Assembly: GCA_020847545.1 (NCBI GenBank)
Contig: JADLBV010000067.1
Span: 1 to 38,848, forward strand
Origin: Phycisphaerales bacterium
GTDB lineage: Bacteria > Planctomycetota > Phycisphaerae > Tepidisphaerales > Tepidisphaeraceae
Length of the DNA stretch: 38,848 nt
Reading direction: 5' to 3'
This document shows positions 723-38,848 of this stretch, in pieces. Every line of letters begins with the position of its first letter. Positions within the stretch are counted from its first letter, which is position 1. The notes under the pieces were generated by a model. It was not told the DNA's origin, ran no database searches, and saw only the letters and a program-made list of their open reading frames with translations. The position numbers were made by a program, and so were the translations under genes.

Positions 723-766
723 CTCGAGTCCTTTTTTCTAATCCCTCTCCCGAAACAGGAGGTCGT

Positions 767-1984: not shown

Positions 1985-2067
1985 AAGCCTCTTTCGTGGG
2001 GTCCGCAATTTCGCGGGCCATCTTTAATGGTCCGCACGGGTGCGGACCCTACAAATAATCCAAACCA

Positions 2068-4003: not shown

Positions 4004-4030
4004 GCGGTTCAGCCGGCCGGCCTGAACCGC
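4004..4030. repeat. 27-bp inverted repeat in divergent intergenic region
   Basis: GCGGTTCAG (4004-4012) and CTGAACCGC (4022-4030) are exact reverse complements around a GC-rich centre that is itself nearly palindromic. It sits in the 292-nt gap between the leftward PilB-like gene and the rightward pseudopilin gene, upstream of both. It could be an operator or a REP-like element. The remainder of the gap shows only the promoter at 4088-4116 and a short G/C-run palindrome near 3971-3985. Confidence 0.6.
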
Positions 4031-4087
4031 ACGCCGCTGAACTAGTGTACCCCTCAATTGCCCGTGCATCAAAGGTAATTTCACCCC

Positions 4088-4116
4088 TTGACTAAACTTT
4101 TCGCCCATTGGATACA
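4088..4116 (+). promoter_or_regulatory. Sigma70-like promoter of the pseudopilin gene
   Basis: TTGACT (4088-4093), a 17-nt spacer and GATACA (4111-4116) form a good -35/-10 pair, placing transcription start about 15-20 nt before the ATG at 4139. Confidence 0.55.
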
Positions 4117-4138
4117 CTAACAACCGGACGGGATCGTT

Positions 4139-4666
4139 ATGCGCCGAAAAAACGGATTTACCTTAATCGAACTTCTGGTGGTGCTGGGCATTTTGTCGGT
4201 GCTGATCGGTATCCTATTGCCCACATTGGCCGGCGCTCGAAAAAAGGCCCGCAGCGTCGCCTGCAAGGCCCAATTGCAGAATATCGGCGCGGCCTTCCAG
4301 ATGTACCTCAACGCCAACAAAAACCGCTACCCCTATTCCGGCCCGCTCCCATCGGCCATCCCATCCGGTTCGGACCAGAAACCCCTGCCGGAACTGCTGG
4401 CCTCTTATGTCAGCAACCAGATGAAGGTGTTTCATTGTCCGGCCGATGAAACGCTGTTTCAGGATGAGGGGATCAGCTATTTCTATTATTCTGAAATCGG
4501 CGAATATCCGATGAAAGACACGTTTTTTTACAAGATGTTCCACTCCGCCAGCCTGGTTCCCATCTTGTGGGATGCGGCCAATTTTCACGGTGGACAACTC
4601 CCCTACAATTGGCTCTTCGCCGATGGGCATGTGGACAACTTCCTGTCGGATGCCCAAGCACCATGA
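4139..4666 (+). CDS. Type II secretion/pilin-like protein with prepilin leader
   Basis: A 175-residue pseudopilin. The leader MRRKNG is followed by FTLIELLVVLGILSVLIG, the classic prepilin peptidase site (cleavage after Gly6, methylated Phe, Glu at +5) with the hydrophobic N-terminal helix. The C-terminus carries the planctomycete H-Xn-DG signature as H, eleven residues, then DG ('LFADGHV'), close to the H-X9-DG class. Such proteins are processed at the inner membrane and assembled by pilus/T2SS-like machines. The gene overlaps the next gene by 4 nt (ATGA), so the two are translationally coupled. Its position opposite the PilB/PilT genes fits, although this protein class is highly multiplied in planctomycetes and many copies are unlinked to pili. 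Confidence 0.88.
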   Translation: MRRKNGFTLIELLVVLGILSVLIGILLPTLAGARKKARSVACKAQLQNIGAAFQMYLNANKNRYPYSGPLPSAIPSGSDQKPLPELLASYVSNQMKVFHCPADETLFQDEGISYFYYSEIGEYPMKDTFFYKMFHSASLVPILWDAANFHGGQLPYNWLFADGHVDNFLSDAQAP

Positions 4667-5295
4667 AATGGCCAACACGCAAATTCCTGCTCAAATGGAT
4701 CGCCCCGCCGATGGCGCTATTTTTAGCGGTTGGTTTGGGTTGGGGTGTTTGGCGTTGGGCAACCTATCCCAAAGCGCCCGATCCCAAGTCCAGCAATTTT
4801 GAGACGATGTTTAACTTCGTATCCGGCAAGGACTTCGATCGCATGTTCGAGTCTGACCGCCGACAATATGTGCTGGCGATGGTGGAGAAACTGCGGCAAA
4901 AGCCTTTTGAAGAACTGGTGGCGTTGGGGATGAAACGCGATCCCAACTACCGGGTCGTGGGAAAGAAAATCCGCGGGATGGACGACCACGAACAAATCGA
5001 ATCGGCGTTCTTAAGTCTATTTCTGGACAAGTTTTATGAGATGCCGGAGGCCAAACGCACTGTCTATTTAATGACTTTTGTGACGCTGCAAAACAGCAAA
5101 TTGGATGAACATCCCGAAAGGATGGGACTGCCCAGCACGGATCGGTTCAAACGCGATATGACCCGTTTCATCTCGCGGATGTCTCCCAAAATCCAAGCCA
5201 AGACCGGCCAGTTTCTGATCGACCTTCGGCGTCAGCGCGAAGTGCTTGGGTTTCCGGAATACATCCAACGCACCCCGGATCAGGCCGGCAGTTAG
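4663..5295 (+). CDS. Small membrane-anchored protein coupled to pseudopilin
   Basis: A 210-residue protein I do not recognise. It starts at the ATG overlapping the upstream stop (ATGA at 4663-4666); a longer in-frame extension to 4567 would lie inside the pseudopilin gene and is rejected. Residues 1-10 are basic, and about 11-30 ('WIAPPMALFLAVGLGWGVW') form one membrane segment. The rest is soluble and charged, predicted helical, with no cysteines and no catalytic motif that I can see. Translational coupling to a pseudopilin suggests a role in the same envelope complex, for instance as an assembly partner, but that is inference only. It ends 3 nt before the convergent nadA stop codon, so the two transcripts must overlap or share a terminator. 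Confidence 0.7.
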   Translation: MKWPTRKFLLKWIAPPMALFLAVGLGWGVWRWATYPKAPDPKSSNFETMFNFVSGKDFDRMFESDRRQYVLAMVEKLRQKPFEELVALGMKRDPNYRVVGKKIRGMDDHEQIESAFLSLFLDKFYEMPEAKRTVYLMTFVTLQNSKLDEHPERMGLPSTDRFKRDMTRFISRMSPKIQAKTGQFLIDLRRQREVLGFPEYIQRTPDQAGS

Positions 5296-5298
5296 ATT

Positions 5299-6510
5299 CT
5301 AATCCACAATACCAGCCTTGGCGGCCTCTTCCTGTGAAACCATGCGACCCTGGCCGCTCTTGGCGGGGATCGGGCTGCCGGTTCCTTTGATCGCGAGCAT
5401 CCGCTGCAACGCCACGATGGCCCATTTTCGCGTTTGATCGTCCACGCGGATTTCGTTGACGACCTTTCCTTCCAGCAGATTGTCCAACGCCCAACTCAGA
5501 TGCGGCAGGTCGATGCGATACATCGTGGTGCAAAGGCACTGACAATCGCTCAGGACAATGACTTTCTGTTCAGGATGCTGATTTTTCAGGCGGTTGATCA
5601 GGTGAACTTCGGTGCCGATGGCCCACTGGCTGCCGGGAGGGGCGGATTGCACGGTTTTGACGATGTAGGCCGTGCTGCCGGCGAGGTCGGCTTTCTGGAC
5701 CACTTCCCAGGTGCATTCAGGATGGACGATCACCTTCATGCCGGGATATTTTTCACGCACCTGATCAACATGTTCGGGGCGAAATAGGGCATGGACCGAG
5801 CAATGTCCTTTCCAGAGGACAAAATCGGCCTTTTCCAGACGAGTTGGATCGTTGCCGCCAAGTTCCTGACGGGCATCCCACACAACCATCTGATCCAGCG
5901 GATATCCCATTGCGGAGGCGGTGTTGCGGCCAAGGTGTTGGTCGGGGAAGAATAATATTTTGACTTTTTTCCCCGGCGGGACATTTTCATTGGCTCCCCC
6001 TTTGACGGCCCATTCGAGCACGTTGCGGCAGTTGGAACTGGTGCAGACCGCCCCACCATGTTCGCCGACGAAGGCTTTGATGGCGGCCGAGCTGTTCATG
6101 TAGGTGATGGGGACGATCAACTGATCGGGGCAGGTTTCGGCCAGTTGTTCCCAGCATTCGAGGGTCTGATCGAGGCTGGCCATGTCGGCCATGGAGCAAC
6201 CGGCCCCCAGCTCGGGCAGGATGACGCGAACGGAAGGGTCGGTGAGGATGTCGGCCGACTCGGCCATGAAATGCACGCCGCAGAAGATGACAAATTCAAC
6301 ACCCTTCTGATCGGCGGCCTTGCGGGAGAGTTCAAATGAATCGCCGGCAAAGTCGGCGAAATCCATCACGGCATCCTGCTGGTAATGGTGGCCGAGAATC
6401 GCCAGCCGTTTACCCAGTTTTTGTTTGGCGGCACTTATTCGCTCGCGCAGTTCGGGTTCTTTCAACTGACGATAGATCGGTGGAAGCGGTTGTTGCCATA
6501 CATGGGCCAT
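5299..6510 (-). CDS. nadA: Quinolinate synthase
   Basis: A 403-residue quinolinate synthase. The enzyme condenses iminoaspartate with dihydroxyacetone phosphate in de novo NAD synthesis, in the cytoplasm, using an oxygen-sensitive 4Fe-4S cluster. Family signatures seen: 'ILGHHYQQDAV' (38-48), 'FCGVHFMAESA' (76-86), 'YMNSSAAIKA' (137-146), 'WKGHCSVH' (233-240) and 'VHPECTW' (262-268). Likely cluster cysteines are C77, C237 and one of C323/C325/C327 in 'SDCQCLC'. The length matches the longer Bacillus-type NadA. The start at 6510 has an AAAGGAG site 9 nt upstream; a longer reading to 6690 has no such site and no homology-like sequence. No nadB or nadC is nearby, so it appears to be a stand-alone gene. 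Confidence 0.95.
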   Translation of the reverse strand: MAHVWQQPLPPIYRQLKEPELRERISAAKQKLGKRLAILGHHYQQDAVMDFADFAGDSFELSRKAADQKGVEFVIFCGVHFMAESADILTDPSVRVILPELGAGCSMADMASLDQTLECWEQLAETCPDQLIVPITYMNSSAAIKAFVGEHGGAVCTSSNCRNVLEWAVKGGANENVPPGKKVKILFFPDQHLGRNTASAMGYPLDQMVVWDARQELGGNDPTRLEKADFVLWKGHCSVHALFRPEHVDQVREKYPGMKVIVHPECTWEVVQKADLAGSTAYIVKTVQSAPPGSQWAIGTEVHLINRLKNQHPEQKVIVLSDCQCLCTTMYRIDLPHLSWALDNLLEGKVVNEIRVDDQTRKWAIVALQRMLAIKGTGSPIPAKSGQGRMVSQEEAAKAGIVD

Positions 6511-6738
6511 TGCGATTGCGGCTCCTTTAATAAGGACTTTCCTGTCCGATACTATGATAGGCGGGTATCGATGGAAAGTGTGGATGAAATTCTTTGCGCG
6601 CCAAATTATCAGAAATATGTGCGTTTGCGCAAAAAATAGGCAGCCATAACCCGTATCGACAGGACAAATGCCATCATTTCGATCTGGCACTCCATTTGTT
6701 ATCGCGTTGGTCGGGCAATTCTTTAAGGAGTGTGATTG

Positions 6739-7851
6739 ATGTCGAATGGGAAGGGTCGTTGTCTATTGACAACATTGGTGTTGTTGGGTGGTACGGGGCA
6801 GGTTTGGGCGGAAAACGATGCACTGCCATTTCAATTGTCGGGGCATGTCGAAGGTTCATTGACATACGATGCCAGTTCAGGATCGGACAAGATGATCTTG
6901 GGCCGGGTTTTTGATTTTGAAAATCAAGACCCGACGCTGAACCAGATGACACTGGCCATTGAGCGGATGGTCGATCCAAGCAAACATCAATTTGACGTCG
7001 GCGGGCGGGTGGAATGGATGTACGGGGCCGATGCGCGCAAGCTTCACTCCACCGGATTGTTCGACTATTACGGCGGAGAGGTTCAAAACCAGTTCGATTT
7101 AACACAGGCATATGTGGATGTGGCGATTCCATTCGGCAACGGAATCCGGCTACGGATGGGTAAATTCGTCACGCCATTGGGTTTTGAAGTGATCGACCCC
7201 ACCGGAAACTGGCTCTATTCACACAGTTATCTCTTTGGAGCGATCGCCTTCACCCATATTGGAGCGATGGCGACTTATGTGATCAATGACCGATTGACGT
7301 TTGATGTCGGCATCAGCCGGGGTTGGGATGATGCGCTGGAAGACAAGAACGATGCGATGGACCTGTTGGGGAAGGTGAGTTATCAGCTCACCCCTCAAAC
7401 CTCGTTGATCTGGGTCATGTCCGCCGGCCCGGAACGGGCGGGAGACAATGGGGTTTGGCGCACGACCCTGAATGGGATCATCAACCATCAGGTCAACGAC
7501 GACCTGAAACTGGGTGGCGAAGGGTTGTGGGTGCTGGATGGAGGGATGGAGAGCAGTTGGTATGGGATCGCGGGGTATGCCCAGTATCGCCCCTGCGGCA
7601 GCCGTCATGTCGCATTGAATCTGCGCGGTGAGTGGTTTGTCGATCAAACCGGCGGGCTTTATGGCACATCCTCCAATCTGTATGAAGTCACCCTTGGGCT
7701 GGGGATCACGCCGCTGCCGGATGATAAATATGGGAAAAATCTGATGATTCGTCCTGAAATCCGGGCCGATTACGCGGAACATGATTTTTTTGGCGGTGGA
7801 ACGGAAAACTTCCAATTCACCGCGGCGATTGATGCGATTTATTCATTTTAA
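6739..7851 (+). CDS. BBP2-family outer-membrane beta-barrel porin
   Basis: A 370-residue secreted outer-membrane protein. Residues 1-24 form a Sec signal peptide ending VWA. The mature part alternates polar and hydrophobic residues as beta-barrels do. It carries the hallmark of the BBP2 (OmpL-like, PF07642) family: 'GKFVTPLGFEVIDPTGN' followed by 'SHSYLFGAIAFTHIG'. These barrels are common in planctomycetes and related phyla and presumably allow diffusion of small solutes; the substrate is unknown. The start is ATG 6739, preceded by AAGGAG at 6725-6730; an in-frame TTG one codon earlier is unlikely. It is transcribed away from nadA and is followed 65 nt later by metF, with no obvious functional link. 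Confidence 0.85.
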   Translation: MSNGKGRCLLTTLVLLGGTGQVWAENDALPFQLSGHVEGSLTYDASSGSDKMILGRVFDFENQDPTLNQMTLAIERMVDPSKHQFDVGGRVEWMYGADARKLHSTGLFDYYGGEVQNQFDLTQAYVDVAIPFGNGIRLRMGKFVTPLGFEVIDPTGNWLYSHSYLFGAIAFTHIGAMATYVINDRLTFDVGISRGWDDALEDKNDAMDLLGKVSYQLTPQTSLIWVMSAGPERAGDNGVWRTTLNGIINHQVNDDLKLGGEGLWVLDGGMESSWYGIAGYAQYRPCGSRHVALNLRGEWFVDQTGGLYGTSSNLYEVTLGLGITPLPDDKYGKNLMIRPEIRADYAEHDFFGGGTENFQFTAAIDAIYSF

Positions 7852-7916
7852 CACGGGCGGGTATTGGCCTGAATGACCAGGTTCCTTAAAATCGCCATCC
7901 TTAGCAAAGGAACCGG

Positions 7917-8783
7917 ATGCGGATTGATGAGTTGCTGGGCCGGGGTGGGCCGTCCATTTCGTTTGAATTTTTCCCGCCCAAGACGGATGCGGGATTTGGG
8001 CAACTCTTTTCGGCGATTGAGGAATTGCGCCCGTTGCAACCCAGTTACGTCTCGGTGACGTACGGGGCCGGCGGCAGCACCCGGCAAAAGACGGTTCAAC
8101 TGGTCGAGCGGATCCAAAACGAGTTGGGGATCCGGTCGATGGCCCATTTGACCTGCGTGGGCCACACGGCCGAGGAGATCGGCGGGATTCTCGATGAACT
8201 GTGGAAATCGGGCATTCGCAATGTGCTGGCATTGCGGGGAGACCCGCCGGCCGGCCAAAGCCAGTTTGTGGCGACGCCGGGCGGGTTTGGGTATGCCAAT
8301 GAACTGGTGAAATTCGTCAAATCACGCCACGATTTCTGCATCGGCGTCGCGGGATACCCCGAAGGCCACCCCCAATGCCTCAACCGCACACGAGACTTGG
8401 AACACCTGAAGGCGAAGGTGGATGCGGGGGGATGTTTTGTCATCACGCAGTTGTTTTTCGACAACGCCGAATTTTACCGCTTTCGCGACGAAGCCAGGGC
8501 CATGGGGATCAAGGCCCCGATCATCGCGGGGATCATGCCGATCACCAACGTGTCGCAGATCAAGCGGTTTGTGTCGATGTGCGGGGCGAAAATCCCACAT
8601 CGACTGTTGCGCAAGCTCGAATCGGTGGAATCCGACCCGGAAAAGGTTCATCAAACCGGCGTCGAATACGCGGCCATGCAATGCGCGGATTTGCTCTTTA
8701 ATGATGTGGATGGGGTGCATTTTTATACACTTAACAAGAGCAAGGCGACGGTGGGCGTGGTGGAACGGTTGAAACGACAATAA
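7917..8783 (+). CDS. metF: Methylenetetrahydrofolate reductase
   Basis: A 288-residue cytoplasmic FAD enzyme reducing 5,10-methylene-THF to 5-methyl-THF, the methyl donor for methionine. Signatures: 'SFEFFPPKTDAG' near the N-terminus, 'YVSVTYGAGGSTR' (44-56), 'MAHLTCVGHT' and 'NVLALRGDPP' in the TIM barrel, 'GVAGYPEGH', and 'FVITQLFFDN' near residue 180. The length is the usual bacterial catalytic-domain size. ATG 7917 follows AAAGGA. It lies about 3 kb from the metY-metX-metW operon on the opposite strand, which suggests a loosely grouped methionine region. No S-adenosylmethionine riboswitch was recognised upstream. Confidence 0.95.
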   Translation: MRIDELLGRGGPSISFEFFPPKTDAGFGQLFSAIEELRPLQPSYVSVTYGAGGSTRQKTVQLVERIQNELGIRSMAHLTCVGHTAEEIGGILDELWKSGIRNVLALRGDPPAGQSQFVATPGGFGYANELVKFVKSRHDFCIGVAGYPEGHPQCLNRTRDLEHLKAKVDAGGCFVITQLFFDNAEFYRFRDEARAMGIKAPIIAGIMPITNVSQIKRFVSMCGAKIPHRLLRKLESVESDPEKVHQTGVEYAAMQCADLLFNDVDGVHFYTLNKSKATVGVVERLKRQ

Positions 8784-8810
8784 TCATATTATCGCGTAAA
8801 AAGACAGGTC

Positions 8811-8839
8811 TTGATATTATCCCTCTTTTGTCCTACCTT
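8811..8839 (+). promoter_or_regulatory. Possible promoter of the kinase gene
   Basis: TTGATA (8811-8816), 17 nt, TACCTT (8834-8839). The -10 is weak. The 291-nt gap between metF and the kinase holds nothing else recognisable. Confidence 0.3.
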
Positions 8840-9074
8840 TAATTGTATGGGGTCAATCGGCCGGCTCGAGGCACCGGTTTCTCCTGAAAAAGCAGGGTGA
8901 ACACCTCAGCGCCCTGTCTTGTTGATGCTTCATTGAGGTACAGTGCGTCAAAGTTGTCTTCCGTTCGCGGCGGATGTTTATCATCCTTTATCTTCCGCCG
9001 AAAATGTGCCGGCCAGGGGAATCCACCCAACCCAAGCCGGAAATTCGAGGACGACCGGGGTGGACATTATATCC

Positions 9075-9941
9075 ATGGTTCAGAAACTGCTGCACTACGA
9101 TGTGTTGGAGCGTCTCGGAGAGGGTGCGCGGAGCATCATCTACGCCGTCCGCGATCCGGAGACCCGTCAGGTTTACGCCCTGAAGCATGTGGTGCGCGCC
9201 GAACAAAAGGACATCCGCTTCATCGAACAAATGGAGGCGGAATTTGAGATCAGCCGGCAGTTTACCCACCCCAATCTTCGCCGGTCGTTCGATCTGAAAA
9301 TTGTCAAGTCCTTGCTGTTGAAGGTCAACGAAGCCTTTTTGTTGATGGAACTGGTCGATGGCAAGCCGCTGGATGTGCGGCTGCCCCCCAGCATCATCGA
9401 CATCGTGGATACATTCATCCAGGCCGCCCAGGGATTGAAGGCGATGCACGCGATGGGATACGCCCATTGCGACATCAAGCCCAACAACATCCTGCGTAAC
9501 GAAAAGGGCCGGGTCAAAATCATCGACTTTGGCCAAAGCTGCAAGATCGGCACGGTCAAGGAACGCATTCAGGGGACTCCGGACTATATCGCCCCGGAAC
9601 AGGTGCTTCGTCGGCCGATCAGTGTGCAGACGGATGTCTTTAATCTGGGGGCGACATTGTACTGGTCCACCACCGGCCGACACATTCCCACCGCCTATAC
9701 GGTCAAGGGGAAGGGTGAGAACAGCTTTTTGCTGGATACGCGATTTGAGACCGCTACTGAATTAAACCCCAAGGTTCCGGCCGCCATGAGCAATCTCATC
9801 ATGGCCTGCATCGCCACCAAGCCACAAAGCCGACCGGCCGACATGGATGAGGTGCTGTCGAGACTTGAATTGGCCAAACACATTTTAAGCCGGCCAACCA
9901 GCTCCATCGAAACGTCGATGCTGGACGACACCCATCATTAA
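9075..9941 (+). CDS. Compact Hanks-type serine/threonine protein kinase
   Basis: A 288-residue protein that is essentially only a kinase domain. Motifs: Gly-rich loop 'RLGEGARSIIY' (13-23), VAIK-equivalent lysine K37 in 'YALKHVV', catalytic loop 'HCDIKPNN' (131-138; HCD instead of HRD, with Asp133 and Asn138 retained), 'DFGQ' (151-154), activation-loop 'GTPDYIAPEQ' (167-176) and 'TDVFNLG'. The key residues for activity are therefore present. There is no transmembrane segment or sensor domain, unlike most bacterial Hanks kinases, so it should be cytosolic. ATG 9075 sits at the start of the domain. An open reading extending to 8943 adds 44 residues without kinase features or a ribosome site. 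It converges on metW with a 12-nt gap. The substrate is unknown. Confidence 0.9.
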   Translation: MVQKLLHYDVLERLGEGARSIIYAVRDPETRQVYALKHVVRAEQKDIRFIEQMEAEFEISRQFTHPNLRRSFDLKIVKSLLLKVNEAFLLMELVDGKPLDVRLPPSIIDIVDTFIQAAQGLKAMHAMGYAHCDIKPNNILRNEKGRVKIIDFGQSCKIGTVKERIQGTPDYIAPEQVLRRPISVQTDVFNLGATLYWSTTGRHIPTAYTVKGKGENSFLLDTRFETATELNPKVPAAMSNLIMACIATKPQSRPADMDEVLSRLELAKHILSRPTSSIETSMLDDTHH

Positions 9942-9953
9942 AAAAATCACAAC

Positions 9954-10676
9954 TCAATCACCCGCGGTGAGGATGCAGAGGATTTCCTGCGCGAAAATGT
10001 TGTCGTTGGGTTGCAGCGGACGCACACCTTCGGAGGAGAGGACATGGGATTCGAGCAATTTGGCATTCAGTTGGGGCAGACAACCCAGAAAATCATCGAG
10101 GCTGAACAGATGGATGTTGGGGGTGTCGTACCAACGGTAAGGCAGACAGTGGGTGATGGGCATGGTGCCGCGCAGGGCGAGGTCGAGACGAACCCGCCAG
10201 TAGCCGAAATTGGGGAAAGAGACGATGCCGCGCCGGCCGACGCGGAGCATTTCACCCAAAACATCCAGCGGACGGCGAAGGGTCTGCATCGTCTCCTCCA
10301 AAACGACGTAATCAAAGCTCCGGTCGGCGAATCCCTTCAATCCCGCGTCCAGATCGCTCTGGAAAACCGGGACACCCCGCGCGACACATTGCATGACGGC
10401 TTCGGCGTCCAGTTCAACACCCTGCCCGCGCACTTTTTTGGCAAGGATCAGGCCGGACAGAAGCTGGCCATCGCCACACCCCAGGTCCAGAACGGCGCTT
10501 TTGGGTTCGATGAGTTGTTCGATGATCCGATCCTGCCAGCGAGATGTGGGTGAATCGGGAGAAGCCGCGATGGCCGGTCGATCCACCAGTTGCAAAAGCT
10601 CGGCATCGGCCCATTTGGAGAAGGATTCATCGATGGCCGACAGCAGACAGCGAATTTGTTCCAGGTTGCGGGTCAT
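9954..10676 (-). CDS. metW: MetW, methionine biosynthesis methyltransferase-fold protein
   Basis: A 240-residue Rossmann-fold protein. 'VLDLGCGDGQLLSGL' (about 63-77) is the SAM-binding motif I. 'FDYVVLEETMQTLRRP' and 'GIVSFPNFGYW' followed by 'LPYRWYDTPNIHLFS' are diagnostic of MetW. MetW pairs with MetX homoserine acyltransferase in many bacteria and is reported to be needed for its activity. Its start overlaps the metX stop by 4 nt (ATGA), the usual metX-metW arrangement. The N-terminal 45 residues before the fold are longer than in many MetW proteins, which are typically near 200 residues. Confidence 0.93.
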   Translation of the reverse strand: MTRNLEQIRCLLSAIDESFSKWADAELLQLVDRPAIAASPDSPTSRWQDRIIEQLIEPKSAVLDLGCGDGQLLSGLILAKKVRGQGVELDAEAVMQCVARGVPVFQSDLDAGLKGFADRSFDYVVLEETMQTLRRPLDVLGEMLRVGRRGIVSFPNFGYWRVRLDLALRGTMPITHCLPYRWYDTPNIHLFSLDDFLGCLPQLNAKLLESHVLSSEGVRPLQPNDNIFAQEILCILTAGD

Positions 10677-11887
10677 GCGGGGTTCGTTGGGGTGGTTTTG
10701 AGGAAGTTTTGCAGCAGATGGCCGACCGTTTGGTTCTCCACCAGGAAGGCATCATGCCCAAATCTCGACGGGACATTCACATAAGTGACCGGCTTGTGCG
10801 CCCGGCACAGCGCAAGGGCAAATTCGCGGCACTGGGCCGGTGTATACAGCCAGTCCGATGAGAAGGAGACGACCATCACCTGCGATCGGATGCGCTGACA
10901 GGCCGCCACCAGGTCCCCCCGCCCCCATTTGGCGGCCGCGTCGTAATAATCCATGGCACGGGTGATATAAAGATAGCTGTTGGCATCAAAGCGCTCGACG
11001 AAGGATCGCCCCTGGTGATCCAGATAACTCTCCACCTCAAACTCCACACCAAATCCGGAGCGTTTTTGCCGGCGTCTTCTGCCGAATTTTTCGTGCATCC
11101 CCTCCTCCGAAAGATAGGTGATGTGCGCCATCATGCGGGCAACGGCCAGACCATGATTGGGATGGTCCGTTTGATAATAATCCCCCCCATTAAAATTCGG
11201 ATCGTTCATGATCGCCTGTCGACCCACGGCGTTAAACGCCAATCCCTGTGCCGACAATCGCGGCGACGCCGCCAGCACAATCGCCCTCTGCACCCGATTT
11301 GGAAATGCCAAGGCCCATTCCAGCGCCTGCTGCCCCCCCAACGATCCCCCCACCACCGTATGGATGCGATCAATCCCCATCGCATCCAACATTCTCGCCT
11401 GAAGCTGCACCCAATCCCCCACCGTCACCACCGGAAAGGACAACCCATACGGCCTTGCGGTGGCGGGATTGATCGACGCCGGGCCGGTGGTTCCGTAACA
11501 GCTCCCCAGAAAATTGGCGCAGATGACAAAATACCTCCCCGTGTCGATCGCCTTGCCCGGGCCGACGATCCGGTCCCACCATCCGGGGTGTTTCAATCTC
11601 CAACTCCGCCCGGTCGATCCCGCCTCGGAATCCCAACCGGCCGCGTGGGCGTCGCCGGAGAGGGCGTGGGTGATGAGAATCACATTGTCCCTTCCAGCCG
11701 ACAATTCCCCGTACGTTTCATACTCCACTTCGATGGGGCCGATGGTTCCCCCCATCTCCAGCGCGAAGGGATTCTTCCCGGTTGCCAGTTGCATCCGCTT
11801 GGCGCGTGTTGATCCGACCGAATGGGGGCTGTCGGGTGGGTCGCCGATCGGTTTGCGGGGGGTTTGACTGGATGCCGGGTCTGGCAT
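10673..11887 (-). CDS. metX: Homoserine O-acyltransferase MetX
   Basis: A 404-residue alpha/beta-hydrolase enzyme that acylates homoserine with acetyl- or succinyl-CoA, the first committed step of methionine synthesis. Seen: 'LITHALSGDAHAAG' (71-84), 'NFLGSCYGTTGP' (125-136), nucleophile elbow 'GGSLGGQQALEW' with Ser182, Asp345 in 'SSDWLYTP' and His378 in 'RFGHDAFL', completing the catalytic triad. Acetyl versus succinyl specificity cannot be read reliably. A basic insertion RRRRQKR near 270-276 is an oddity. The start lies 3 nt after the metY stop, and the stop overlaps metW, so the three genes form one operon. Confidence 0.93.
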   Translation of the reverse strand: MPDPASSQTPRKPIGDPPDSPHSVGSTRAKRMQLATGKNPFALEMGGTIGPIEVEYETYGELSAGRDNVILITHALSGDAHAAGWDSEAGSTGRSWRLKHPGWWDRIVGPGKAIDTGRYFVICANFLGSCYGTTGPASINPATARPYGLSFPVVTVGDWVQLQARMLDAMGIDRIHTVVGGSLGGQQALEWALAFPNRVQRAIVLAASPRLSAQGLAFNAVGRQAIMNDPNFNGGDYYQTDHPNHGLAVARMMAHITYLSEEGMHEKFGRRRRQKRSGFGVEFEVESYLDHQGRSFVERFDANSYLYITRAMDYYDAAAKWGRGDLVAACQRIRSQVMVVSFSSDWLYTPAQCREFALALCRAHKPVTYVNVPSRFGHDAFLVENQTVGHLLQNFLKTTPTNPA

Positions 11888-11890
11888 GAA

Positions 11891-13213
11891 TCATCCCGTG
11901 GTGGCAATCCGCAAAGCCTGGTCCAGATCGGCGATGATGTCGGCCACATCCTCCAATCCCACCGAGATGCGGACATAATCGGGTGTGACCCCCGCCTTTT
12001 TCTGGTCCTGTTCCGACAACTGCTGGTGGGTTGTACTGGCCGGGTGAATCACCAGCGTGCGAACGTCGAGGATATTCGCCAGGTGGGAGGCGAGCTTGAC
12101 GGAATTAATGAACTTTTTCCCCGCCTCCAGCCCCCCTTTGATCCCGAATCCCATGATCGCACCCGCCCCCTGGGGAAAATATTTATTCGCCCGTTCAAAA
12201 TCGGGATGGGAAGGGAGCCCCGGATAATTCACCCAACCCACGGCCGGGTGTTTGGCCAGAAATTCCGCCACCTTCCGTGCGTTTGCCACATGGGCGCGCG
12301 CCCGCAGCGGCAGGGTCTCCGCCCCCTGCAAAATCAAAAAGCTGTTGAACGGGGACAAACAAGCCCCGGTGTCGCGCAACAGTCCGCAGCGAGCCTTCAG
12401 GACAAAGGCCATTCCCGGGGCCACCGCTTTTTCATGCCCGCCGAAGGCATCCCAGAAGTTCACTCCATGATAAGAATGATCCGGCTCCGTAATTTCCGGG
12501 AATTTACCCCCTTTTTTCCAATCAAAATCCCCTTTTTCCACAATCGCCCCCCCCATGGAGTTGCCATGCCCACCAATCATCTTCGTCAGGGCATAAACCG
12601 CGATGTCGGCTCCATGATCAAAGGGATTAAACAACGGCGGCGGCGTCACCGTGTTGTCCACGATGAACGGAATTCCGTTTTTGTGCGCAATCGCCGCGAT
12701 GGCGGCAAAATCATCGACGTTGTTGCGCGGATTGCCGATCGACTCACAAAAAACCAGCCGGGTATTTTTGTCGATGGCATTCTTCACATTCTCCGCCTTG
12801 CTCGAATCGACCAACCTCGCCTCGATGCCGAATCGTTTGAGGGTGGATGTAAAGAGGGTGACGGTCCCGCCATACAGATAACTGCTGGAGACAATATTCT
12901 GCCCGGCGTTGGTAATATTCAAAATGGCATAAAAAATGGCGGACATCCCCGAAGCAACCGCCAGCGCCCCCGCCCCACCATGCAAAGCGGCCAGCCTTTT
13001 CTCCAAAACATCGGTGGTCGGGTTCATGATGCGCGTATAAATATTTCCAAACTGCTTTAACGCAAAAAGATTGGCCGCGTGATCGGCGTCATTAAAGACA
13101 AAACTGGTCGTCTGGTAGATCGGAACCGCCCGCGCCAACGTCGCCGGATCGGGCGACTGCCCCCCATGAATGGCGGCGGTGTCAACGGAAGGTCTGTTGG
13201 TCTTTTTCGACAT
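11891..13213 (-). CDS. metY: O-acetylhomoserine sulfhydrylase (MetY)
   Basis: A 440-residue PLP enzyme of the Cys/Met metabolism family that makes homocysteine from O-acylhomoserine and sulfide. Features: '[12 protein letters not shown]' (29-40), '[15 protein letters not shown]' (59-73), '[11 protein letters not shown]' (83-93), PLP-contacting Asp186 in 'FIVDNT', and the Schiff-base lysine K211 in '[11 protein letters not shown]'. The mid-region insertion and the total length above 420 favour MetY over MetB/MetZ. ATG 13213 has an AAGGAG site 7 nt upstream; a longer reading to 13327 runs into a purine-rich non-coding stretch. It is first gene of metY-metX-metW, i.e. a direct sulfhydrylation route. 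No SAM riboswitch or MetJ-box series was recognised in the leader. Confidence 0.93.
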
Positions 13214-13307
13214 TGGCTTCTCCTTGTTGGGAACATGATACCCGATCCGCCGATGATATTCTCCCTGATGACAAGGTGACAAGGTGAGGAGGAAGGGAGG
13301 AATGTGC

Positions 13308-13352
13308 CACAGAAACACAGAGCACACAGAGAAGAGAAGAATAAAAAAGAGG
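13308..13352. repeat. CACAGA-type purine-rich intergenic sequence
   Basis: Repeated CACAGA/ACACAG/AGAAGAG units occur upstream of metY, next to tandem GACAAGGT at 13268-13283. They look like a low-complexity intergenic repeat rather than a gene or riboswitch. This sits in the 568-nt gap 13214-13781, whose other recognisable content is the ISL3 remnant; 13658-13781 shows only a short GC-rich palindrome. Confidence 0.45.
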
Positions 13353-13363
13353 TCCTTCCGGAA

Positions 13364-13657
13364 TCACAGTGGGTATAAATCCAATCCGCCACAATGGAAA
13401 TAGATCGCGGTTTTGAAGTTCTCGACGTTGCGGAAGCCACAGCACTATCGCTTGATTGTCATGATTTTACTGTTCAGTCCTTCCGCCACGCCGTTGGTGA
13501 TGGCGTGGCGGCAATAGGGAGCGGGCGGAAGAACCCCTTGACTTTCGACGGGCAGGTTCCGATCCTGAGCATGCGGCTTCTCCTTTGGTGGCAAAACGCT
13601 TCGTAAGAGCAGTTGAGCCATCAGGATAAGCCGTTTTTGTTTGGTCGTGCAAGTCAT
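13364..13657 (-). pseudogene. ISL3-family transposase C-terminal remnant
   Basis: On the minus strand, codons ending at 13364 read 'YCRHAITNGVAEGLNSKI', 'MTIKR', a TAG stop at 13445-13447, then in the same frame 'GFRNVENFKTAIYFHCGGLD' and a TGA. This matches the conserved C-terminus of ISL3-family DDE transposases, in which the segment is continuous, so one nonsense codon has split it. The upstream codons (13520-13657) no longer resemble the family, so the rest has been lost. No terminal repeats were found. It lies between the metY leader and the IclR gene, marking an old insertion at the boundary between the housekeeping and the carbohydrate region. Confidence 0.75.
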
Positions 13658-13781
13658 CGGTATCAGCGAAAACGGTCAGTTTGAGTTACAAACCCGCTAA
13701 CCAGTGCAGACATTTTCCGCGCCCCTCATTCCGCCCCCGTGCGGGCATTTTGCTTGCCCCTTACCACTGTATTGGGAATAT

Positions 13782-14594
13782 TTATTCGGTATTGATTGGT
13801 GCACCCAGATGATTGGAAATTGTCGCGGCGGCGGCCACCAGCATCTCGCGTACGTTTTCGACAGGTGTGCGCTGCGTTTTCAGGACAATGACCGGTGTTG
13901 CCAGAACAGCAGTAGCCGAGCCGGATGGATCAAGAACGGGTGCGGTGATGCCGATGATTCCCTCTACTTCTGAACTGGGTCCCTGCCAGTAATGCTGATG
14001 GCGTATTGTATTGATGATTTCATCCAGATCGTCGGGGACTGGTGCGTTCGGATGCGCTGTTTGCCATTCTCGAATCCATCTTTCCCGATCTTCAACCGGC
14101 TGATATGCCAGTAGAAGCAGCCCTGACACGGAGTCGAACAGCGGCAGCATCCTTCCCAGACGAACGGAAAATCCAATGAAATCCGGGCTGTCGACGTTTG
14201 CGACCACCAGGATGCCGTGGTGATGCTTGATGCCAAGGTGGCATGACTCGTTCGTGTCATGGGCAAATCGGCGCATGATGGGCAGCGCCAGGTCCAGCAA
14301 ACGCCTTGTTGGCGGATGTTGGTGAGACAGTTCGAACATCTTGGCCGTCAAGCGATAAAGGTCTCCGGGGCGGTCACGCTGCACATACCCTCGCTGCTCT
14401 AGGCAATCGAGCATCCGGTAGATTTCACCCGGCGAGCGGTTCAATTCCCGTGCGATCATCGCCTGGTTGACCGCGCTGTCATATCGGGCCAGGAGTTCCA
14501 GGATGTCCAGACCCTTCTCCAATGCCGGAGCGCGGTAACGGCTGACCGCAGGCTGAACTGCCTCCGATGTCGCTTTGTCCACATGCTTATCCAT
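13782..14594 (-). CDS. IclR-family transcriptional regulator
   Basis: A 270-residue regulator. Residues about 20-85 form the winged helix: 'RAPALEKGLDILELLA' then 'RSPGEIYRMLDCLEQRGYV'. Residues about 95-265 form the IclR effector domain, with 'SCHLGIKHHHGILVVANVDS' and the conserved 'GIIGITAPV' and 'ATAVLATPV' strands. IclR proteins usually sense a small metabolite of the pathway they control. The neighbouring dehydrogenases, uronyl hydrolase and enolase-superfamily genes make a sugar acid the likely ligand, by inference. ATG 14594 begins the protein; an in-frame GTG 21 codons upstream is less likely. It is the last gene of a leftward group after an SDR and a GH105 gene. Candidate operators are the palindromes at 17256-17265 and 17303-17318. 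Confidence 0.9.
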   Translation of the reverse strand: MDKHVDKATSEAVQPAVSRYRAPALEKGLDILELLARYDSAVNQAMIARELNRSPGEIYRMLDCLEQRGYVQRDRPGDLYRLTAKMFELSHQHPPTRRLLDLALPIMRRFAHDTNESCHLGIKHHHGILVVANVDSPDFIGFSVRLGRMLPLFDSVSGLLLLAYQPVEDRERWIREWQTAHPNAPVPDDLDEIINTIRHQHYWQGPSSEVEGIIGITAPVLDPSGSATAVLATPVIVLKTQRTPVENVREMLVAAAATISNHLGAPINTE

Positions 14595-14763
14595 GATATT
14601 GCAATTCCGATTATTGTGCCGAAGCCAACCCGACCGTTCCTCCCCGCGAGATGCCACCCGGTATCTCTGTTCGTGGCATGATACCGCATCATGGCATTAA
14701 AATGCACGCTTTGACAGCGTCCGAAATCTGCTTCCTCTACCGCGCGGTCATAGGCTAATACAT

Positions 14764-15573
14764 TCAATCGCGGCAGAATTGCTGGACGTCGGATGCCTTA
14801 TACATCTGGTAGCCGCCATCGACAGGAATGATTGCCCCGGTGATGAATTCCGACAGGTCGCTGGCGAGGAATAACGCCATGTTGGCCACATCATTCGGCA
14901 AGCCAAGTCGTTGTGTCAGATGGTAGCTTTCAACTGTCCGCACGGCTGCGGGATTTTCGTCAAACCACTTCTTCTGCACCTCCGTGATGATGTAGCCGGG
15001 GCTGATACAGTTCACGCGAATGCCCTTTTTGCCATAATTGACAGCCATGGATTTCGTTAATGAAACAACGCCCCCCTTGGCCGCGGTATAACTGTCAAAA
15101 CCGCCTTCAGGGAGAACTGCATCGCAACTGCTGACATTGATGATGACGCCCCGTCCTTGTTCCAACATTGCGGGAATGCAAGCCTTGGAGCAAAGGTAGA
15201 CGCCCTTGAGTGTGATGTCGAGCTGACGATTCCACACCTTTTCATCCAGCTCATGGACGGCCCTGTCCTTGTCGTTGCACAATTGTGTCGCGGCGGCGTT
15301 GTTGTACAGGATGTCTATCCTGCCCCATCTGTGCAGGGCAGCTTCAGCCATCGAACGGACTTCAGTCCAATTGGAAACATCGCAGTGTGCAAAGGCGACC
15401 TGCTCGTCGGCAAGACCGATCAGTTCCATCGTGCGGTTGCCCTGGTCATCGTTGACATCCGCCACGAGAACTTTGGCGCCGTGCCGGGCGAACAGCATTG
15501 CCGCCGCACGACCCATGCCCATGGCGGCGCCGGTAATGACAGCAACCCGATCCTTCAACAGCTCGTTCCACAT
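14764..15573 (-). CDS. SDR-family NAD(P)-dependent dehydrogenase
   Basis: A 269-residue classical short-chain dehydrogenase/reductase. Cofactor motif TGAAMGMG (14-21), Asp39 after strand 2 (favouring NAD), 'NNAA' (91-94), and catalytic Ser149, Tyr162 and Lys166 in 'SYTAAKGG'. 'SPGYI' and the C-terminal 'FITGAIIPVDGGY' are also typical. The start at 15573 is chosen because AAGGG lies 6 nt before it; the ATG two codons earlier at 15579 is too close to that site. The substrate is probably a sugar, sugar acid or hydroxy-acid, given the neighbours, but SDR sequences do not reveal it. It lies between the GH105 and IclR genes on the same strand. Confidence 0.88.
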   Translation of the reverse strand: MWNELLKDRVAVITGAAMGMGRAAAMLFARHGAKVLVADVNDDQGNRTMELIGLADEQVAFAHCDVSNWTEVRSMAEAALHRWGRIDILYNNAAATQLCNDKDRAVHELDEKVWNRQLDITLKGVYLCSKACIPAMLEQGRGVIINVSSCDAVLPEGGFDSYTAAKGGVVSLTKSMAVNYGKKGIRVNCISPGYIITEVQKKWFDENPAAVRTVESYHLTQRLGLPNDVANMALFLASDLSEFITGAIIPVDGGYQMYKASDVQQFCRD

Positions 15574-15634
15574 CGCCATCCCTTAAATGGGCATCGCCTC
15601 CTGCGCACGGCTGTGGCCTGGGGGCCTGTTCGAT

Positions 15635-16831
15635 TTAACCCAAAGTAACCGCCTGAGAATGCGGCGCAGCGGCGGGGATTATAACCGCGGTGGGATTTAC
15701 GATCACCTGTGCGCGGCGCGCCGGTTTGAGCTGGAGAAAACGGGAACAGGCAACCAGAAACGGACCCTGGCCCCATGGCACGACGCCGCCTCGCGGCATG
15801 GTGCAGTAATGTTCTGCCCGGCGGCTGGGAAACGTTTCAAATGACACCCCGTCCACAAGACCATTCTCGCGCAGATGCCTCCACATTGCCCGCCAGGCCT
15901 TCTCGGCCACGGCAAAATAAGATTTGTCGATCCATCCCCGGTTGATCGCCAGGGTGAATCCCGCGATTACGAACGCCGCCACGGAAGATTCCAGGTACGA
16001 GTCCGGCCGATCCAGGATCGTGAACCAGTCTCCGGATGGATCCTGCAACTCGGTAAGTCGATTTACCTGCTGGACCAGCACCTCTTTCAAATGGATAAAT
16101 TCGGGTCTGTGCGACGGAAGATGCTGCATCGTTTCCACGAGGCCAAGCAGGCCCCATCCATTGCCACGTCCCCACAGGATGCCGTTGCGTTGTTCAGATT
16201 CCTCAATCCAGAAATGATGAAACAACTGATGGGCCGGATCCCATAGCAACTGGACTTGCGGCACGATCGTCTGAAGACATTGTTCAAGATACCGCTCTTC
16301 TTTCGTCACGGCATACAACGATGCGAGAAAAGGACCCTGGAAATGCACACTGTCCACGAAAACGCAGGCGCCGGCATTCTCCGTCGCCATGGACTTGCGG
16401 CGCTGTTCGGCACGTTCCGAATACTGGGGATGATCGATCGGCAGCTCCGGAGGAAGCTCCAGGTGCGCATCATCATAATGGATCGGGCAGCCATTCTTGG
16501 ATCGGCGAAATGTTGATAGATAATCTGCGAAATCCCTCGCCGCTTCCAGCAGGGAGGGATCACCCGTCCGCTGATAGCATCGAACCAAGGCGACGCCCGC
16601 CGCCGTGTGGTCAAACTTACTGCGATATTCGATCCTCGATATCCAACCCTTGAACAATCCATGGACGTAGCCAAGATATTTCTGATTGCCAGTCAATTCA
16701 GTCGCATCGAGCAAACCTTCCAAGCCGATTCCATCACCCCAGAACCACATTTTCCATCGGTAGTCCGTGAGCAAATTCGCCGCGCAGGCGATGGTGGCAA
16801 GCATGATCTGACGTGGTGGTATCGAATGCAT
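15635..16831 (-). CDS. GH88/GH105-like unsaturated glycuronyl hydrolase
   Basis: A 398-residue (alpha/alpha)6-barrel protein of the glycosyl hydrolase family 88/105 type (PF07470), which hydrates the 4,5-unsaturated uronic acid left at oligosaccharide ends by polysaccharide lyases. Seen: 'FWGDGIGLEGLLDA' (30-43), 'VDSVHFQGPFLASLYAVT' with the likely catalytic Asp160, 'WGRGNGWGLLGLVE' (220-233), 'ESSVAAFVIAGFTLAI' and 'VPWGQGPFLV'. No signal peptide: the hydrophobic N-terminal part is the first barrel helix, so action is cytoplasmic, as for YteR/YesR. It is first in a leftward group with SDR and IclR genes; the candidate promoter at 17112-17140 leaves a leader of about 270 nt. No polysaccharide lyase is recognised in the window, which leaves the source of unsaturated ends open. 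Confidence 0.85.
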   Translation of the reverse strand: MHSIPPRQIMLATIACAANLLTDYRWKMWFWGDGIGLEGLLDATELTGNQKYLGYVHGLFKGWISRIEYRSKFDHTAAGVALVRCYQRTGDPSLLEAARDFADYLSTFRRSKNGCPIHYDDAHLELPPELPIDHPQYSERAEQRRKSMATENAGACVFVDSVHFQGPFLASLYAVTKEERYLEQCLQTIVPQVQLLWDPAHQLFHHFWIEESEQRNGILWGRGNGWGLLGLVETMQHLPSHRPEFIHLKEVLVQQVNRLTELQDPSGDWFTILDRPDSYLESSVAAFVIAGFTLAINRGWIDKSYFAVAEKAWRAMWRHLRENGLVDGVSFETFPSRRAEHYCTMPRGGVVPWGQGPFLVACSRFLQLKPARRAQVIVNPTAVIIPAAAPHSQAVTLG

Positions 16832-17111
16832 ATGTTACTTTCATCTATTCGCCACGAATTCCGGCCTCCAGGCGATATCCGGCGACCGGAACCTCTCGGC
16901 TCAGGATGGGTTTCAATACAACGGACAGTTTCAACGACTGTGCCGTGGTGTTTTCAACATCCGTCCATGCCAACGACAGATTTCGCCAATCCAGCGTTGG
17001 ACTTTCTCCACGCGTATGCTGTTGGCAATAAACAACTTGTGGCAAGTTAACGCCCATCGCATTTATCCACTGCTCCAAACAAAATGATTCATAAGCAAAT
17101 TTACTATTTAC

Positions 17112-17140
17112 TTTTACACCATTTTTTGATTTTTGTCAAA
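17112..17140 (-). promoter_or_regulatory. Leftward promoter for the GH105-SDR-IclR genes
   Basis: On the minus strand TTGACA (17140-17135), 17-nt spacer, TAAAAG (17117-17112), embedded in A/T-rich DNA. It lies in the 531-nt divergent gap 16832-17362. Confidence 0.45.
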
Positions 17141-17232
17141 AGACTTTTTTAGTAACCAGGCTGAAGCTTTGGAAATCAGCCAAAAAACAACTTCCATGGA
17201 AAAGGTTGAATTGCTGGCAACACAAATATCAG

Positions 17233-36500: not shown

Positions 36501-36772
36501 TTCAGGGATCAAAAGAGGTTGCGTTGTATTTCGATGTTCGCTTGCCGCGGGAAATGTACGACAATGCGAACATCGAACTTTTCATCCGTGGGGCCGGCCG
36601 CGATATTGTGACGCAAATCCCAATGCCCTTGGACGAACAGGTCCATGTCGATATTGCTGTTGCTGACTTGCCCGCCGGTTCATACAAACTTACCGCGGTC
36701 TTATGTGTGCCCGATAAACAGCCATGCACTACTGTGGAGGGTTCATTCCTGATTGTAAGAGGAATCGAATAG
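33509..36772 (+). CDS. GH123/DUF4091-like glycosidase with CBM9-like C-terminus
   Basis: A 1087-residue secreted enzyme candidate. Residues 1-21 are a signal peptide (chosen start MKIYSVLLPF at 33509; the frame extends to 33416 without signal or ribosome site). About 22-175 is a beta-sandwich that may bind carbohydrate. About 200-350 is the N-terminal domain typical of DUF4091/GH123 ('YLEWIDEPVSFAKGKT', 'LTLDVPADCTPGIYKG'). About 355-690 is the barrel, with 'YIQPLDEVSW': D486-E487 match the adjacent Asp-Glu catalytic pair of GH123 beta-N-acetylgalactosaminidases. About 850-1010 resembles a CBM9-like domain ('KIDGDVDIEGEWASA', 'FMDDCIEIFLDP'). By family it would release amino-sugar residues by substrate-assisted catalysis. 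It is the last gene of the locus before mobile-element debris. Confidence 0.8.
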   Translation: MKIYSVLLPFIGILSAVGHCAEVSMIASFEGPDDNPFVARDCAMSQAQEHVTAGSSSLRIEIKANVKGFPGIYLPAIDRDWTRKSVIVVDVFNPSGEPVALSMRLDSVKDGPVGYGPVMLRPGWNRGMAVNIGHYRPYHDFSDVRGLHIGVEEPKKDITLFIDNIRWTTFSKTFHRIEYLETAPAMRPTAEEEALGFIAFGRHYMSLVFPNSMPDNRIETIRTFAARGEKEPVTINLHPLRDLSSIIVTSSDLQGPNGSVIPSTRWSTRLLRHMDKREGYPFDTYVADMPVYLEWIDEPVSFAKGKTETFWLTLDVPADCTPGIYKGNVVIQSGIQRQVLPLVVRVLPFGLPDDHGLLFGEYYLGAGKTILNRDQIRKDMRDMREHGATSLGLWFTTDPSTYTVDGQEVSFHLRGDSQFEWLMEAYQECGFPGPIVMGFDAGIDAADSVFKYGDPNWDRVYVNYHKALAEEIRKRGWPRIYIQPLDEVSWHSNEEKEKNLHLLKLLKSADIPTEMDGAADAYMAGEAGTYADMWTVSSTFVPFEMLATARAQGRLTTIYNVDSEGWLPEADRWSRGLYLWNMGLHGVYNWAYRHAYGSYYDDFDAENGENVHVYPPEHHHQGGPGTGWEVSREGIDDLKYLVLLERLIIKGQSAGGLAAKRAKEAAAQLQRLRDDLDSNTDASRGRARWDQTISPKQALDLGLVQDSSSVIHYVAGQHKIPNGMTFEEYDAVRWMVATHICGLMEALGEPDSVLNHTASTAKPIEKRVRHIRLQKAKTSADRPELIVRTLTSAPKIDGDVDIEGEWASASRVNLTMDNGSGDPQMLTDIFCGFHDSTLYVAAICTEARIHQMTANVKEDGGPVFMDDCIEIFLDPGRTQQRYYQVAINSLGKIMKIDSSGHAWQAEIVAAARVNSGKKQWTVEAAIPMAELNLGDQFGLNFCRERRPMDTFELSSWSPTGGSFARMDRFGAGQVEGGRRTIQPVEPGLKLKVKPRYLVQGSKEVALYFDVRLPREMYDNANIELFIRGAGRDIVTQIPMPLDEQVHVDIAVADLPAGSYKLTAVLCVPDKQPCTTVEGSFLIVRGIE

Positions 36773-36872
36773 CCGTTGTCGATTCATGAGCGGATAATGT
36801 AGGCAGCAAAGGGGTGGTCCAGAGGCTTCGTTCACGCGGAGGATAGAGCTCTGCTGAGGAGCAACTCGAGCG

Positions 36873-36929
36873 CCGACGTGGACCGTTCGACGGTCGTCGG
36901 GCCGGACGCTTTCGGCGGCGTTCGGCCCG
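36873..36929. repeat. Two stacked GC-rich hairpins after the glycosidase gene
   Basis: CCGAC...GACCGT-TCG-ACGGTC-GTCGG (36873-36900) has a 3-nt bulge. The second hairpin, 36898-36909 with 36918-36929, is a 12-bp stem with one G-T wobble and an 8-nt loop. They lie about 100-150 nt beyond the stop. No U-run follows. They could be terminator-like, or belong to the end of the lost insertion element. Confidence 0.5.
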
Positions 36930-36969
36930 CTTTCTTCCGCACGACCAGAGAACGTGCATTGCGATAAAC

Positions 36970-37192
36970 CTAAACCCTCACCGTCGGCGAAGCCGCCTTT
37001 CTGATTGTCTTTCTTCCAAGCTTCGTAAAACTCATTCGGCGTGATCGCCCAGTTCTGCTTCGTCGCCAGCGCGCTATGCGGACGCTGCTGGTTGTAACTC
37101 TTGGCGTAGAGTTTGATCGCCGCCCGATGGAGATTCTCGCGACCAGCAAGCGCCCGTCCTGTCTTCGCTTCGACAACGTACGCCTGCAATGC
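36970..37192 (-). pseudogene. Integrase-core transposase C-terminal remnant
   Basis: The minus-strand reading 'LHRAAIKLYAKSYNQQRPHS', 'ALATKQNWAITPNEFYEAW' has the N-x-x-R-P-H-S-A-L signature of rve-type transposases (IS3/IS481 type). The reading starts at the junction with the ISAs1-family element near 37193, so its catalytic part is missing. Downstream codons continue open into the tail of the glycosidase gene but lose family resemblance, so the true end is uncertain. It was probably split by insertion of the ISAs1-type element. Confidence 0.65.
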
Positions 37193-37200: not shown

Positions 37201-38189
37201 TCAGTTTTCACTTATTTTACGTCTGATGGCCTCAAGGGCCTTGACCGGGTTGGCGCAGAAGGTTCGCAACTGGGCCGCCCGGTTCTTCACGCCAAGGGTT
37301 TGCAGCACGTTCAGCACGCTGTTGCGCAATGCTGAAAGTATGATCGGGGCCGAACATTTTCTCACCCGGCAGGCATCCTCCCCCAGGGTCTGATCCCGAA
37401 CGTGAAAAACCTTGTTCTCAATGCCCCAGTGCGCCCGGACGATGGCCAGCAGTTGGTCCGCGCTGGCCCGCTGGCGCGGCAGCGATGTGATGCCGTAGGC
37501 CGTTTCCGTGGTGGTTTTCAATATGCCGCTGTGTCGTTCGCGAATGGTGCGTGTGCGGATCAGCCGGAAGCACTGAACCACGCCGGGGAAGCCCAGATAG
37601 TCGGCGTCGAGCTGTGTCGTGCTCGACAGCGTGCGCGTTTCAAGCCGTCCGTGTCCTTTGCTGACCGTGTGCGCGGTCTGGCGCTCGGCCCTGGCCAGTC
37701 GTCGCTGCCGAGGGGGAAGTGTCCGCATCATCAAAAGCATCCTTGATGGCGGCAAGTAAATCGGGCTGGTTGTCCTTCACCGGCCAGAGGTAATCCCCCC
37801 GTTTCGCCCTGATTTTACGCGATAAATCACGCTGGCAGAACATCGCGTCGCCGGTGACCAGCTTCCCCTCGACGGGGATCAGGTCCAGCAACTCCAACGC
37901 GGCCTTGTGCTCGTTGGTCTTGGCATCCACCGGCAGTTGACGCAGCACGATGCCCGCCTCGTGGGCGTACGCCGCCAGCAGGTGAACCCCGGGCAACTGC
38001 ACATCGGTGGAGCCACGCAGCGTCTTGCCATCAAGGCTCACCGTCGTCCAGCCGCGCCCACGGGCCATCACGCCCGTCCAGCGCGCCAACGCCTCCTCAA
38101 ACGCCACCTTGTCCAGCGAGATGAACAGGTTGTGCAGCGTCGTGCAACAGGGCGTGGTCTGGCGGGTGAATCCCATCGCGGCCGCAAAA
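37201..38189 (-). pseudogene. ISAs1-family transposase, truncated and frameshifted
   Basis: Two overlapping frames on the minus strand together encode one ISAs1-type DDE transposase. The first holds 'ALARWTGVMARGRGWTTVSL', then 'DGKTLRGS', 'LLAAYAHEAGIVL', 'VTGDAMFCQRDLS' and 'KDNQPDLLAAIKDAF'. The second resumes as 'LPPRQRRLARAERQTAHTVS', 'HWGIENKVFHVRDQ', 'GEDACRVR' and ends with a stop at 37201-37203. The break is at a run of five G on the plus strand (37712-37716), requiring a +1 shift, so one base gained by slippage is likely. The N-terminus is cut at 38189 by the IS3-type miniature element; about 60-80 residues are missing compared with the family. CAGGGCC at 37193-37199 probably marks its surviving terminus. 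Confidence 0.8.
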
Positions 38190-38400
38190 TGACCTTCCCC
38201 ACAAATAGCGGGCGCGTGCACTTGGGTTCTCGTCACATCAATTGGCCCTCGCCTCGAACGCTTCGGGGCTTTGGTAACCGATCGCCGAGTGACGTCGGCG
38301 GCGGTTATACCATCCTTCGATCCATGCGATCAAATCGCTGCGGGCTTCCTGTCGGGTTTGGTAATTCCGATGATGCGCCCGCTATTTGTGGGGAAGGTCA
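38190..38400 (-). mobile_element. 211-bp miniature IS3-family derivative with perfect termini
   Basis: 38190-38215 and 38375-38400 are perfect 26-bp inverted repeats. The tips read TGACCTTCCCC, of the TG...CA type usual in IS3-family elements. Inside, on the minus strand, only the last 44 codons of an IS3 OrfB remain. The element therefore looks like an internally deleted, MITE-like IS3 that keeps both ends. Its left flank is the ISAs1 transposase, its right flank a gene fragment. The flanks show no matching target duplication (AAA versus ATG), which suggests a deletion or recombination after insertion. Confidence 0.8.
38238..38372 (-). pseudogene. IS3-family OrfB C-terminal fragment
   Basis: Minus-strand codons encode 'YQTRQEARSDLIAWIEGWYN', then 'RRRRHSAIGYQSPEAFEARA' and a stop at 38238-38240. 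This is the invariant C-terminal signature of IS3-family transposases (YNxxRRHSxxGYxSPxxFE). The DDE core and OrfA are absent, so it cannot transpose by itself. Confidence 0.85.
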
Positions 38401-38582
38401 ATGCGATCTTGGCGTTCAAGGTTGAGGGGAAAGCCGCCCTGCAGGAGATGATTGACAGGACGACGGACAAGCAGTTGGCCGACCGGGCATGGCGGGTGGT
38501 TTGGATACCATTGAAGGTGATGTCGTACACCTCGGCGACGGCGGAGGAAGACGCAGTGGCCGAGTCGCATCGACCCAAATAG
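38401..38582 (+). pseudogene. 3' fragment of an unidentified gene
   Basis: From the tip of the IS3-type element the frame 'AILAFKVEGKAALQEMIDRT', 'TDKQLADRAWRVVWIPLKVM' runs to a TAG at 38580-38582, with strongly G/C-biased third positions, as in real genes here. The frame also runs back into the inverted repeat, which cannot be ancestral. I do not recognise the family. It lies 38 nt before a PIG-L-like start on the same strand, so both may once have been one operon. Confidence 0.5.
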
Positions 38583-38663: not shown

Positions 38664-38688
38664 CGCCCGCTATTTGTGGGGAAGATCA
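38664..38688. mobile_element. Third, solitary copy of the IS3-type terminus
   Basis: 25 bp matching the 38375-38400 repeat with one mismatch (GATCA instead of GGTCA at the tip). The tip points right, like the copy at 38400, but the sequence on its inner side is the PIG-L fragment, so the body of this element is gone. Confidence 0.75.
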
Positions 38689-38811
38689 TTCCTTGCCACC
38701 GCGTACCCTGTGGGTATGTGGCGGGCGTGTGACAGTTTTTGCGGGCATAAATGGTGACTGGAGGATACCATATGTTGTGGGGATCACCTTAAACCTCATG
38801 GAGGAGGTTGC

Positions 38812-38848
38812 CATGGCTTCACGGACGAATCGCGAGCAGTCCCGTCAA
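38812..38848 (+). CDS. Start of a possible transposon gene (cut by right edge)
   Basis: GGAGGAGG, 5 nt, then ATG and 12 codons (MASRTNREQSRQ) to the edge. The polar, Arg-rich opening resembles IS66-type accessory proteins, but 12 residues do not suffice to decide. Confidence 0.3.

Follow-up and report, generated by a model that had tools for sequence, protein, structure and literature searches.

A 211-bp unit with two complete IS3-group ends in a Phycisphaerales bacterium, probably an internally deleted relic

The 211-bp unit and its surroundings

The window, the whole stretch of 38,848 nucleotides analysed here from a Phycisphaerales bacterium, carries near its end a unit of 211 bp (38190-38400) surrounded by remnants of other insertion sequences (IS) (Table 1). 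Its two ends (38190-38215 and 38375-38400) form an inverted repeat of 26 nt, 100% complementary, with the tips TGACC...GGTCA, having the length (about 25-40 bp) and the TG..CA tips of the terminal inverted repeats of the IS3 group. Shuffled sequences would be expected to contain the 22-bp core of the end 0.00 times, whereas the window contains it three times, in the two ends and in a third copy, indicating that this core is not due to chance. The strong hairpin fold of the unit (z -8) only restates the inverted repeat. Searches of Rfam and PADLOC returned nothing, and viral contigs searched with the end sequence gave no match.

Table 1. Coordinates of the unit, its flanks and the neighbouring debris in the window
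Feature	Position	Strand	Basis or remark
Left flank, remnant of an ISAs1-family transposase in two overlapping frames, lacking its 5' part at the unit tip	37201..38189	-	NF033564, E 3.2e-39, model 37-212 of 314
Left end, OrfB-side terminal inverted repeat (IRR)	38190..38215	+	Tip TGACC at 38190; OrfB tail and stop just inside
Last ~45 codons of OrfB (IS3 family) and stop codon, catalytic residues gone	38238..38375	-	Frame translation, profile matches, comparison with the OrfB of relative G007
Right end, terminal inverted repeat with OrfB codons immediately adjoining	38375..38400	-	Internal-deletion junction at ~38375
Right flank, open frame	38401..38582	+	No significant Pfam match
Solo third copy of the end, 25 bp long, its 22-bp core differing at 1 position	38664..38688	-	Core at 38664-38685; 260 bp from the 211-bp unit
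Beginning of another multi-copy repeat (probably also an IS) that closes the contig	38719..38848	+	125-129 bp common to four other contigs (C48, C81, C148, C74)

Between the ends, the minus-strand frame reads HHRNYQTRQEARSDLIAWIEGWYNRRRRHSAIGYQSPEAFEARAN up to its stop codon, about 45 codons. This OrfB tail (44 aa) matches positions 330-369 of the 369 in the NCBIfam model transpos_IS3 (NF033516) with an E-value of 4.4e-11, falling short of the cutoff for whole proteins as a fragment would, and Pfam rve_3 with 2.3e-6. Measured against the 323-aa OrfB of a full-length relative from the same family (G007), which itself matches NF033516 with 4.4e-111, as an IS3-family DDE transposase does, residues 278-323 were kept, and the DDE catalytic residues, being located upstream of them, are gone. 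Alignment sets the junction at about 38375, where the inner edge of one end is followed by the OrfB codons CATCATCGG. Neither OrfA nor an OrfB with intact DDE residues is present in the unit, only these last codons. Judged by its sequence, the unit is a derivative of the IS3 family (IS3 group) and not a functional IS3.

In a comparison with IS3 from Escherichia coli (IS3A, NC_000913), 16 of the left end's first 23 positions agree with IRL at an offset of 3 (p 1.5e-5 by shuffling), and 17 of 30 agree with the E. coli right end. Besides this and the match of the OrfB C-terminus, the unit differs from the group in its length, 211 bp against about 1.27 kb, and in having no OrfA, OrfB catalytic core or target-site duplication. 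The first-pass annotation, which had described a miniature unit with two perfect 26-bp ends and only the OrfB tail, is thus confirmed, and its derivation from IS3 by internal deletion is supported by the profile match, the alignment to the full-length relative and the IS3A comparison.

That annotation did not include the third end, the missing target-site duplication or the unrelated flanks. The third end directly follows a 15-codon start, MSNKHLRLLVIGAHP, resembling by eye a PIG-L deacetylase gene. Together with the ISAs1 remnant, the contig-end repeat and a weak IS481-like tail, it forms the IS debris around the unit; the last of these, at 36743-37189 on the minus strand, is an IS481/rve_3-like tail (HRAAIKLYAKSYNQQRPHSAL) and another probable transposase remnant. 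The open frame on the right evidently does not supply the missing part of the ISAs1 gene. A search for a target-site duplication of 2-9 bp found none at the unit; as it is also absent at the full-length G007 copy and at E. coli IS3A as annotated, its absence is weak evidence taken alone. A simple insertion would split one sequence, so the unrelated flanks count as stronger evidence.

Related ends in the genome and its relatives

The genome of this bacterium (G000) is a draft of 3.75 Mb in 162 contigs in which the unit occurs once; the further 211-bp copies predicted by the first-pass annotation were not found in it. When 60 relatives were searched with the unit, the matches covered only the end or the OrfB-tail portion. 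Apart from the unit, an OrfB search of the genome yielded nothing but decayed fragments (C73, C32) and a member of another IS3 group (C26), and the complete rve_3 transposase at C26 was rejected as a parent because it belongs to that other group and does not have these ends. No full-length parent with the same ends was found in the draft or in a same-genus genome (G001), the latter having no OrfB match.

Full-length copies with the same ends had also been predicted; relatives of this kind, with similar ends, were found in other genomes of the family but not in G000 or G001. In G007, contig C118 carries a complete element of 1267 bp with the same kind of ends, while in G018, G020 and G002 related ends are attached to OrfA or OrfB as parts of elements. 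A second G007 OrfB, in C231, has 59% identity to that of C118, and over 141 bp of DNA, from the OrfB-side end inward, this C231 element and the unit show 77% identity. The related ends of G020 and G002 lie some 100 bp short of a contig end, the position predicted if a repeated IS breaks the assembly. All named GTDB records carrying these ends are metagenome bins of Phycisphaerae/Phycisphaerales.

In G020, about 28 bases are identical between the end on the OrfA side and that on the OrfB side, although the two ends of G007 C118 differ at a few positions. Near-perfect identity of the ends is common in this IS group and says little about age, and the recent activity previously deduced from the perfect ends does not follow from them.

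Two other short derivatives were observed. One, in the same genome (C73:12841-13386), is 546 bp long, belongs to another IS3 subtype, is internally deleted and has imperfect ends. The other, a 130-bp unit in G001 (C46; L106 positions 1496-1625), combines two IS3-type ends with sequence resembling the OrfB tail on both sides, an arrangement like that of two fused right ends.

As the first-pass annotation presupposed, the ends also occur elsewhere in the genome, mostly as solo ends or in other derivatives, with exact or near-exact copies at C59 (with the OrfA start), C108:175, C108:17211, C65 and C133. Considering 22 ends tabulated from G000, G001, G018 and G005, some continue into recognisable IS3 coding sequence. 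Nothing IS3-like follows past about 25-30 bp at C80:38688 (the third end of the window, for which the listed match is the neighbouring 211-bp unit), at both C108 ends, at C65, at two ends of G001, at C24 and C26 of G018 and at one end of G005; this count of solo ends is approximate, as C133 and C73:7897 score as having no similarity yet resemble OrfA-side leaders by eye. On the inner side of several solo ends, a gene appears by eye to be cut mid-way (dapA-like, PIG-L-like and IS1634-like).

G001 also contains two 39-bp palindromes, TGACCTTCCCCACAAATAGCGGGCGCGTGGGGAAGGTC(A/G), both built from this same IS3 end, with one common inner junction at two unrelated sites (C41:2865 and C55:207487). The idea of a dispersed palindromic element was rejected, as there is only one palindrome in G000 (C5, with a different loop), two in G001 and none in the other relatives. 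A reciprocal inversion between IS copies was likewise rejected, as the remainder of the PIG-L-like gene could not be located; each of the six PIG-L matches in G000 spans the profile nearly end to end. Regarding C108, a 17-kb stretch (175-17211) lies between two inward-facing solo IS3 ends; its reading as a 17-kb element was set aside for three reasons: it lacks a target-site duplication, genes seem to be truncated at its inner edges, and its right flank holds a permease gene end that recurs, near-identical, at the end of C137.

Origin of the unit

The unit is probably a dead, internally deleted and rearranged relic of an IS3-group element, lying in an IS graveyard at the contig end. A full-length element, about 1.27 kb in the relative, with OrfA, OrfB and ends of ~26 bp, would once have been present in this region of the chromosome. 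A deletion reaching from the inner edge of one end to about codon 278 of OrfB would have left that end, the OrfB tail and the other end. A later rearrangement at IS copies, either a deletion or a recombination with another IS3 end or a flanking IS, may then have placed the fragment of the ISAs1 transposase beside one tip and a sequence unrelated to it beside the other. We infer this order of events, as well as the mechanism of the deletion, from the present arrangement. Two points speak against a relic: both ends are perfect and complete, which need not be kept under decay alone, and an intact multicopy parent could be lost in the assembly or binning of a draft in 162 contigs.

The first of these points suits the proposal of the first-pass annotation, a MITE-like derivative of IS3 that is non-autonomous and was moved in trans by a full-length relative, if its flanks were rearranged afterwards. 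The unit is short, has complete and identical terminal repeats and no working transposase; units with two ends exist at 130 bp and 546 bp, and the two G001 palindromes, identical at the inner junction and placed at different sites, could be copies of one mini-element. However, the same internal structure is not found more than once in the genome, no parent was found in the draft of G000 or in G001, the flanks are unrelated, and none of the units has a target-site duplication. Mobilisation in trans is then unlikely, and what stands of that proposal is the internally deleted IS3 derivative. Known bacterial MITEs and IS-derived miniature elements, such as MITEAba12 (PMC6382973) and the Tn3-derived TIMEs (PMC4133298), resemble the unit in being short, without a working transposase and with the complete terminal repeats of a larger transposon, but differ from it, as the unit is a single copy, has no target-site duplication, keeps part of the transposase frame and had no parent found in the genome. 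There is no sign that the unit has moved as a unit, although a functional IS3-group transposase could in principle still act on both intact ends. The figure-of-eight and minicircle chemistry by which the IS3 family transposes has been described (PMC3219604), with no sign here of its acting on this unit.

An assembly artefact, in which two contigs were joined chimerically through the common 26-bp repeat, is very improbable. The unit does lie 450 bp from the end of a contig in a draft assembly, and some solo ends of the genome are also near contig ends (C108:175 and 17211 of 17514). However, four other contigs share 125-129 bp with the final ~126 bases of the window, which points to an assembler working with words much longer than 26, so that a false join through the 26-bp end is unlikely; moreover, 45 codons of authentic IS3 sequence lie between the ends and there are no Ns in the region. 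The near-identity of the right flank of C108 and the end of C137 shows duplication or strain variation in some of these regions.

End-only scars and their possible meaning

With the relic as the preferred reading, the 211-bp unit looks like an ordinary fossil of a known kind of element. The solo ends raise a further idea, a rather improbable one: that the 25-30-bp ends of this IS3 group are preserved units at whose inner edge deletions and rearrangements repeatedly stop; the whole end served as bait, so that shorter scars were invisible and the pile-up at 25-30 bp is no fair statistic. Such stops might be caused by a bound transposase protecting the end or by a GC-rich inner edge acting as a microhomology hotspot. 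If true, preserved ends would give rise to end-only scars across several genomes of this family, with unrelated genes joined there.

Nearly precise excision of transposons leaves remnants, as is the case for Tn10. The 39-bp palindromes of G001, in which two ends seem to have collapsed onto a short repeat (GTG), look similar and may have arisen by excision, whereas the 211-bp unit retains 135 bp of OrfB.

The unit serves mainly as a caution: a pair of short, perfect inverted ends plus a transposase tail does not suffice for calling a recently active MITE, near-identical ends being common and solo ends frequent in this IS group. If the end-only scars are the real product of a defined process, they would let IS3-driven rearrangement be read from the genomes of these Phycisphaerae-type bacteria.
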